Shown here: piece by piece, positions 54,501 through 56,732 of the stretch
Layout of the letters: the number at the start of each line of letters is the position of its first letter
How positions within the stretch are numbered: the stretch's first letter is position 1
From: Rhizophagus irregularis
Taxonomy: Eukaryota; Glomeromycota; Glomeromycetes; Glomerales; Glomeraceae
Assembly (NCBI RefSeq): GCF_026210795.1
Contig: NC_089439.1
Span: 3,410,001 to 3,474,000, forward strand
Reading direction: 5' to 3'
DNA: 64,000 nucleotides
Program-made: the position numbers and the translations under genes
The notes under the pieces: model-generated
Seen by the model: only the letters and a program-made list of their open reading frames with translations
Database searches by the model: none
Told to the model about the DNA's origin: nothing

Positions 54501-56732
54501 ATGAAATTTGGAAAATATTTGCGAGAACGCAAAGAAAAATTTCCTGTAGAATGGAGGGAACATTCTATAGATTATGATTCATTAAAATCATATATTAAAA
54601 CCAACATAATACCAAATTCATTAAAATTAAATTTAAGTCAAATGACATGGAAACCAACTAATTCGAACGAATTACATTTTATTGAATTGGTTTCTTCGAG
54701 ATTATCAGCTTTACAAATTAAAGTTACGGAATTTTTAGTAAAATTGGATAATGAAATACAAAAAGTTTCGGATTTTTTCGTTAAAGAATCCAATTCACTA
54801 ATAAAGAAAAGTGAAGAACAGAATGTAGATACTCTTGATGAAAATGAAGCAAGTAAAATGTTAGAATCTATTATTATATTAGAAAGATTTGTTTTTTTAA
54901 ATTATACGGGTTTAGTAAAGATATTAAAAAAGAATGATAAACATTCAGGATTAAACATTGGTGAAGCTTACCTTTATAGAATTGCTTCACTTACTCTAAC
55001 AAAATCAGACTCACTCTTAATTTTAAAAAAATCTTTAATGAAAAAAGTTGTACAAGAGTTTTCTCCAATCGCATCAACGACATCAACGATTATTAATAAT
55101 GAAACCAAATTAGAAAATAATTCTACGACAATTTCTTCGTCAAAATCATCTTCTTCTTCATTAGGGATGACAACTTTACCTGCACTTTTATCAAAAATTC
55201 CTCAATCTACCACTTCACCAACAACTACAAAAAAAAATTTGTTTCCACCATTAGATTTATTACCTCATCAAAAAGTTATCGCTTCAATTACTGGTCCACA
55301 TGGTACTGATATTATAGGATGTGTTTTGGAATGTATGGCTAAACATGATTGTGTAATTGAAGATTTTATGTTATCCAGATTATATCATGATGTTACTTTT
55401 GGTGTATTAATTGCATTAAGATCTGATGATATAGATTTATTTAAAGATTTAGCTGAAGCGTCTAGAAAATGGGATGGTACTTTAACATTTGATGTTCATG
55501 ATGGTGATCGAATTTTACCAATTGAAGATGCTCCTTATGAAAATCGTATAAAATATGCCGCTACTGTATTAAATCAAAAGGGCTTATCTCCACAATTTTT
55601 AAATGATTGGACAAAATTTTTATTAAAAGGAAAAATTTCTGTAGAAAAAATGCAAAGATTGAACGAAGGAAAATTATCTTGTGCTGATTATAAATTATCA
55701 GTACCAAACAATACAGATTTTGAACGATTAAGACAAGAATTATTCACTCTCAGTACTTCTCATGGTACTGATGTTGCTTTACAACCTTATGATGTTTTCA
55801 GAGAACATAAAAGATTAGTAGTATTTGATATGGATTCTACTCTTATTCAACAAGAAGTTATTGATGAAATTGCTAGACATGCTGGTGTTGTTAAAGAAGT
55901 TGCTAGCATAACCGAATTGGCTATGAATGGTGAAATAGATTTTAAAGAATCTCTTAGACGTCGTGTTTCTCTTCTTAAAGGAACTCCTGTAGAAGTATTA
56001 CAAACTATTAAAGAGAATTTAACTTTCACTGATGGTGCTCATTTCCTCTGCAAAGCGCTGAAGAAAATTGGTTTTAAACTGGCCGTAATCTCAGGTAAGC
56101 ATTAAATTTTCTTTGACGTAGTTATTTCAATCCAAAACTTAGGATATTTTTCAAATTTTTCTTCTAGGTGGTTTTATTCCTTTAGCAAAGTATGTTAAAA
56201 ATGAACTTGGATTAGATTACGCTTTCGCAAATCAAGTGAGTTGAATTTATTATTACGCGTAAAAATTTTTTTTTTAAAAAAAAAAATATAAATTTTCGAT
56301 CACGTATTAACACCATTTTTAATTAAGCTCAAAGTTTCATCAGACGGATTAACACTTACCGGTGAAACTGTTGGACCTATAGTTGATGCTGAACGTAAAG
56401 CTGAATTACTTGAGGTTATCGCTCAGGCTGAAAACGTTACACTGGATCAAGTTATTGCTGTAGGTGATGGTGCTAATGATCTATTAATGTTGGCTAAAGC
56501 TGGTTTGGGGATTGCTTTTAATGCTAAACCAAGAGTACAAGAAAAGGTAATTACTTGAACATTTCGAAGAAAATATCTTCAAAGAATTGCTGTATTAATT
56601 GTATTAATTTACTTATCTTTCTCTCCTGAATGCATTTAGGCACGAGCAAGAATTAATCAAAAGAGCTTAAAGTATGTTTTATATCTATTAGGTTATACCG
56701 ATGAAGACGCTAAGCAATTGTATGATTCTTAA
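54501..56732 (+). CDS. SPX-ACT-phosphoserine phosphatase fusion, four exons, 657 aa
   Basis: CDS join(54501..56094,56168..56235,56328..56546,56640..56732); the introns (73, 92 and 93 bp) have GT/AG ends and consistent phases (1,0,0). AATAAA lies 67 bp after the stop. Residues 1-185 are an SPX domain: [27 protein letters not shown], and the signature [10 protein letters not shown] at 141-150, whose lysines bind inositol pyrophosphates in known SPX proteins. A Ser/Thr-rich linker spans 186-250. Residues 255-400 form an ACT-like region ([20 protein letters not shown]). The C-terminal part is a SerB-type HAD phosphatase: DxDxT motif DMDST at 443-447, SGG at 531-533, K578 in AERKAELL, and GDGAND at 600-605. 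All catalytic residues are present. The reaction is phosphoserine to serine, the last step of the phosphorylated serine pathway. Cytosolic by sequence (no signal or membrane segment). The SPX fusion suggests control by phosphate status (inference). Confidence 0.92.

Follow-up and report, generated by a model that had tools for sequence, protein, structure and literature searches.

An SPX domain and a phosphoserine phosphatase of the SerB2 type appear to be joined in one polypeptide encoded by Rhizophagus irregularis, within the 64,000-nucleotide stretch of DNA analysed here (hereafter the window; G+C content 27%). The arrangement suggests, without proving, that serine production in this fungus, which is probably a phosphate-trading, arbuscular mycorrhizal species, is tied directly to phosphate status. 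The families to which the parts belong are known; what is new is their combination and a possible exchange of one sensor for another.

Gene structure

The coding region reads through four exons separated by three introns, all three of the GT-AG type, and its 657-residue product ends exactly at position 56732 (Table 1). This is the four-exon structure proposed in the earlier note. Exon 1 lies within a stop-free stretch of 548 codons and carries, without interruption, the SPX domain, the linker, the ACT region and the first part of the HAD domain, so that the SPX part and the beginning of the phosphatase do share one exon, as had been claimed. The 64 codons of the linker are free of stops in the gene's own frame (chance approximately 0.003 at the local base composition), while both other frames are interrupted. 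The codon score of the linker is neutral in frame (-0.02) versus -0.46 and -0.87 in the other frames; for comparison, the SPX domain scores 0.09 versus -1.00 and -0.63. At second codon positions the linker has 53% C, an excess attributable to its richness in Ser and Thr. Because exon 1 is open and the linker is stop-free only in its own frame, where its codon score is also better, we take the segment from SPX through SerB to be a single gene. An internal ATG is present in the same frame at M223; initiation at this codon could yield a form lacking SPX.

Table 1. Features of the SPX-SerB gene (window coordinates) and other SPX loci of the genome (G000)
Feature	Position	Strand	Remarks
SPX-SerB coding region	54501..56732	+	4 exons, 657 aa
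Exon 1	54501..56094	+	SPX, linker, ACT region, HAD as far as motif II serine S531
Exon 2	56168..56235	+	
Exon 3	56328..56546	+	K578 (motif III) and GDGAND (motif IV)
Exon 4	56640..56732	+	C-terminus and stop
SPX domain, residues 1-190 (end set by eye)	54501..55070	+	Pfam SPX E 2e-9; PDB 7d3y E 2.5e-11
Predicted pocket residues Y25 and K29	54573..54587	+	Numbers identical to AtSPX1 PBC Y25/K29
Predicted pocket lysines K140, K143, K144, K147	54918..54941	+	Spacing of AtSPX1 K136, K139, K140, K143
Ser/Thr/Asn-rich linker, residues 191-254	55071..55262	+	
ACT domain 1, residues 259-330, degraded ligand loop (H267, D270, I272)	55275..55490	+	Pfam ACT_6
Second ACT region, residues 331-423	55491..55769	+	Without Pfam hit; alignment to ACT-ACT-SerB structure
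SerB catalytic domain, residues 424-644 (spliced)	55770..56690	+	TIGR00338 E 1.9e-81
L088			SPX, then candidate transporter-like reading frame
L089, L090			SPX with EXS
L091	G000:C12:3735000-3737800		SPX paralogue: ankyrin repeats and GDE1-type C2 domain
L092			SPX start and core, RING finger
L093			VTC-like, by resemblance
L094			SPX and VTC domain (VTC4-type)

The surroundings of the gene were surveyed at the level of reading frames. The nearest long ORF upstream (50603-52846, minus strand, 747 codons) has TPR and SET features by eye. Sel1-like repeat ORFs occur on both strands (6655-8001, 11794-13122, 14329-15657, 38418-39914, 43261-44832, 46510-47838 and 47874-48635) and constitute a local expansion, the repeat pattern being named by eye. 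ORF reading also gave two frames resembling BTB/TLDc-type proteins (3717-4916 and 35472-36725), as well as a Crypton-type recombinase-like ORF (32482-33399) and one resembling a pogo/CENP-B-type DNA-binding protein (27946-28719), the last two being probably mobile elements. A signal scan designed for bacteria, uninformative here, returned 19 promoter-like sites versus 18.2 in shuffles and 3 terminator-like sites versus 0.8 (sd 1.0).

The SPX domain and its predicted ligand pocket

Both ends of the protein exceed curated cut-offs, the SPX part with 38.4 bits against 27.8 (Pfam PF03105) and the SerB part with 272.8 bits against an equivalog cut-off of 144.15 (NCBIfam TIGR00338), which upholds the fusion originally proposed. 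The SPX score lies below those of the L088 piece (111.8) and of the VTC4 piece (63.8) from the same genome and above that of the partial L091 piece (32.4). A comparison with solved structures drew 34 distinct sequences (E up to 1). Closest by sequence was SPX domain-containing protein 2 (PDB 7d3y), followed by 5ijp, 7e40 and Vtc4/Vtc3 chains, with the Vtc4 chains at E 1.9e-5 to 9.1e-5.

The ligand residues of AtSPX1 named in PMC7810988 are Y25, K29 and K139, together with K136, K140 and K143. All six positions, matched by residue number and spacing, are present here as Y25, K29 and K143, and K140, K144 and K147, respectively. A basic pocket had been anticipated, and the six positions fall in register with those of AtSPX1; the lysine cluster, too, is present, its limits being K140-K147 rather than K141-K147. 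Furthermore, Vtc4 N123 and K129, which according to PMC10167327 were mutated in yeast VTC, have their aligned counterparts here in N134 and K140. Near the pocket, Vtc4 Y19 is replaced by S22. The core LNYTGxxKIxKKxDK is retained, while identity between this domain and the genome's own VTC4 SPX is only 30%. From this pattern we infer that the predicted pocket would bind inositol pyrophosphates.

The phosphatase and its ACT region

The HAD motifs DxDST (D443, D445, S446, T447), SGG (S531-G533), K (K578) and GDGAND (D601, G602, D605) are all intact; alongside TIGR00338, the Pfam Hydrolase (HAD) model matches over its cut-off (E 1.9e-23). A complete HAD/SerB domain with its four motifs, as reported initially, is thus present. 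Conservation was gauged against the best 80 of at least 584 confirmed bacterial relatives. Thirteen of 16 catalytic-domain positions (D443, D445, S446, T447, E452, R488, S531, G532, G533, K578, D601, G602 and D605) are identical in all 80, although the search patterns used to collect relatives included GDGAND or AM[RNQ]GE[IL]DF, so that the GDGAND positions were partly preselected. The other three vary, F481 being shared by 77 of the 80, A579 by 76 and V441 by 23. The best explanation for the gene is that its product is the fungus's phosphoserine phosphatase, extended by an N-terminal SPX receptor.

An alignment of the last 411 residues with the Mycobacterium avium ACT-ACT-SerB structure extends over approximately 395 residues (E 6.9e-62). 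Identity of this part to five SerB sequences from bacteria, of which two are whole and three are matched stretches, is 35-46%. Pfam ACT_6 matches residues 259-330 (E 4.6e-6, 26.9 bits, cut-off 23). Family models detect this first ACT alone, the second being placed solely by alignment to 3p96 and to bacterial relatives. Because the region can be aligned to both the M. avium structure and the bacterial SerB sequences, we regard it as the regulatory ACT-ACT half of a SerB2-type enzyme. The earlier description of an "ACT-like" region stands as to the presence of ACT and can be made more exact in this respect.

The ligand loop of the first ACT domain (ACT1) departs from the bacterial pattern. It reads G265-P-H-G-T-D270-I-I272 here and most often G-x-D-R/K-P-G-x-T in bacteria. 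Among the best 80 of at least 584 bacterial relatives, the position of D270 is occupied by G in 79, that of H267 by D in 79 and that of I272 by T in 78. The turn glycine is therefore missing (D270); G268, two residues off, might substitute for it. In MtSerB2 the turn glycine, G18, is described in PMC4270767 as needed for L-serine binding, and D270 is its likely equivalent when mapped through the M. avium alignment; around the second ACT glycine (MtSerB2 G108) the alignment is ambiguous. Altogether, the degraded loop suggests that serine feedback via the ACT1 site is weakened or lost. Such decay of ACT1 may be general in fungal phosphoserine phosphatases.

According to the account in PMC10564941, MtSerB2 lacking ACT1 is monomeric, and L-serine bound at the ACT1-ACT2 interface converts the enzyme to a trimer that has very little activity. 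That source also gives the serine contacts as E33, R103 and T136, not glycine, and limits the serine-driven change in assembly to MtSerB2, two compared orthologues failing to show it. These last points weaken both our reading of ACT1 and the oligomer step in the mechanism proposed below.

Genome context and distribution

Profile searches were carried out on the source genome (146,748,485 bases, 32 contigs). TIGR00338 gave 16 matches, two of them over the cut-off and both exons of the SPX-SerB gene; a control search found matches in 14 of 14 genomes, above the cut-off in 7. With HAD-IB, two of five matches exceeded the cut-off, again both in this gene. Neither profile thus revealed a second SerB locus over the cut-off in the genome, a missing match not being proof of absence. 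A search with the full protein gave seven matches (four to itself, one to the VTC4-type SPX and two weak) and found no second SPX-SerB copy in the genome.

The SPX profile yielded 22 matches grouped into 11 places, 8 of which, the SPX-SerB gene included, have matches over the cut-off. Eight of the ten other places were inspected, leaving out the two weakest (on C22 and C18); the architectures of seven are given in Table 1. The eighth, L095 (G000:C9:1922800-1924800), shows a weak SPX-like match below the cut-off with an altered lysine core (KKVCKKHAK) and is perhaps a degenerate SPX.

As for the pathway, phosphoserine aminotransferase is found in the genome (489.1 bits, cut-off 443.6), and phosphoglycerate dehydrogenase gives seven partial matches, none above the equivalog cut-off. 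The genome has two loci of the inositol-polyphosphate-kinase family; Kcs1 and Arg82 are among the components that PMC8401276 lists for arbuscular mycorrhizal fungi.

Neither the full protein nor the SerB or SPX alignments found relatives in viral contigs, and no SPX was found in phage records. Exon 1 matches eight records of the phage collection, none over 80% of its length; among the five listed, coverage extends to the ACT-SerB part or less. The SerB half matches 48 plasmid records, nine of them across at least 80% of that half. That the SerB half was recently acquired from a bacterium by horizontal transfer was considered and rejected: the best 80 of at least 584 relatives are just 36-47% identical (best segment), with no close donor seen among them, and the gene carries introns.

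Among the papers listed from the open-licence PMC literature, none has a title or abstract opening that concerns a fusion of SPX to phosphoserine phosphatase or to haloacid dehalogenase, in agreement with the initial remark that no SPX-SerB enzyme is well described. The same literature listed one paper for fungal ACT-domain phosphoserine phosphatase and none on serine biosynthesis in Rhizophagus irregularis. The word "phosphoserine" is absent from the main text of four mycorrhiza papers, among them PMC8401276, PMC9895418 and PMC13412362. In the passages on SPX that were covered, the domain is named for transporters, VTC and PHO components, PMC13412362 being concerned mainly with plant SPX-PHR signalling.

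Proposed mechanism and alternatives

The likeliest reading, at about even odds, is that inositol pyrophosphates, and hence phosphate status, control the phosphoserine phosphatase through its SPX domain. That serine synthesis is functionally tied to phosphate is plausible, the more so because no other SerB-type match in the genome exceeds the cut-off. We envisage that InsP7/InsP8, reporting ample cell phosphate, would bind Y25, K29, K140, K143, K144 and K147. The SPX domain, with its linker, stands directly N-terminal to ACT1, the place where mycobacterial SerB dimers form; ligand binding could thus change assembly or access to the active site. By analogy with VTC, our guess as to direction is that the ligand would relieve autoinhibition by SPX, serine being made when phosphate is plentiful. 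The sign assumed here is that of plants, where inositol pyrophosphates fall as phosphate drops according to PMC13412362. Statements on arbuscular mycorrhizal fungi run against it: PMC8401276 places IP7 on the low-phosphate side and PMC9895418 predicts its inhibition at high phosphate.

Control through SPX possibly replaces serine feedback through ACT1. More tentatively, and with the balance against it, we propose a full exchange of sensors, in which ACT1 lost serine sensing, SPX was gained, and the pace of serine synthesis came to be governed by inositol pyrophosphates in place of the end product. If true, phosphate supply would be coupled to the flow of carbon into serine, one-carbon units and phospholipids, in a symbiont exchanging phosphate for carbon.

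Other explanations, not all of them exclusive of regulation by SPX, were weighed. Unlikely, but the first to consider, is that SPX serves as an address or docking part, which would anchor the enzyme at the vacuole or to fellow SPX proteins and leave catalysis largely unaffected. Such a tether would be well served by the linker, which is long and probably flexible; the genome has candidate partners in the VTC4-type gene (L094) and in L093, which resembles VTC, and homotypic SPX interaction is reported by PMC10167327 to regulate yeast VTC. However, the six published ligand residues are retained, and pure docking would not obviously need them.

An equally small share of probability goes to regulation of opposite sign, in which ligand-bound SPX inhibits the enzyme and low phosphate releases it, so that serine would be made, or phosphate set free from phosphoserine, under starvation. 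SPX outputs vary in sign from protein to protein and the products of the reaction include phosphate, but the amount of phosphate stored as phosphoserine is probably small, making salvage a weak rationale. Moreover, from 53 to 57 kb there is no CACGTG and one CACGTT (at 54206, of 10 in the window), a pattern which gives no hint of induction by starvation, although this counts weakly.

Less probable still is a recent fusion or relic whose SPX has no function, the protein acting as an ordinary phosphoserine phosphatase. The modest SPX score would fit such a history, but the frame is open throughout, and the pocket residues and the lysine-rich core have been kept despite the low identity to the VTC4 SPX. 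Finally, an artefact of gene modelling or assembly that fused two genes is very unlikely: the linker's codon score is no better than neutral, but nothing between SPX and the DMDST motif introduces a stop or calls for an intron, the other frames of the linker fare worse on both stops and codon scores, and the frame is the same in the genome assembly, which is the window's own source and hence not independent.

If SPX does regulate the enzyme, control by inositol pyrophosphates would reach into core amino-acid metabolism, at the last step of serine synthesis. SPX signalling could then also be followed directly, by a simple assay of this protein, in a probable arbuscular mycorrhizal fungus, where genetics is hard.

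Comparison with known systems

Phosphate transport, polyphosphate synthesis, signalling and phosphodiester hydrolysis are the main settings in which SPX domains are known. The domain described here resembles the SPX receptor domains of plant SPX1/SPX2, Vtc4 and Gde1 in its Pfam match and in having all six AtSPX1 pocket residues; it differs from them in being attached to an enzyme of amino-acid biosynthesis and in having S22 in place of Vtc4 Y19. With mycobacterial-type SerB2 (PDB 3p96, 5is2) the protein shares the ACT-ACT-HAD order, its second ACT being placed by alignment, the match over some 395 residues and the catalytic motifs, whereas the N-terminal SPX and linker, the degraded ACT1 glycine loop and the introns are features of the fungal gene. 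A soluble SPX enzyme has a precedent in Gde1. Like the Gde1-type SPX-ankyrin protein of the same genome (L091), the SPX-SerB protein joins SPX to other domains in one polypeptide; unlike it, L091, known here from an SPX-ankyrin-C2 piece, has ankyrin repeats and a GDE1-type C2 as the fused domains.
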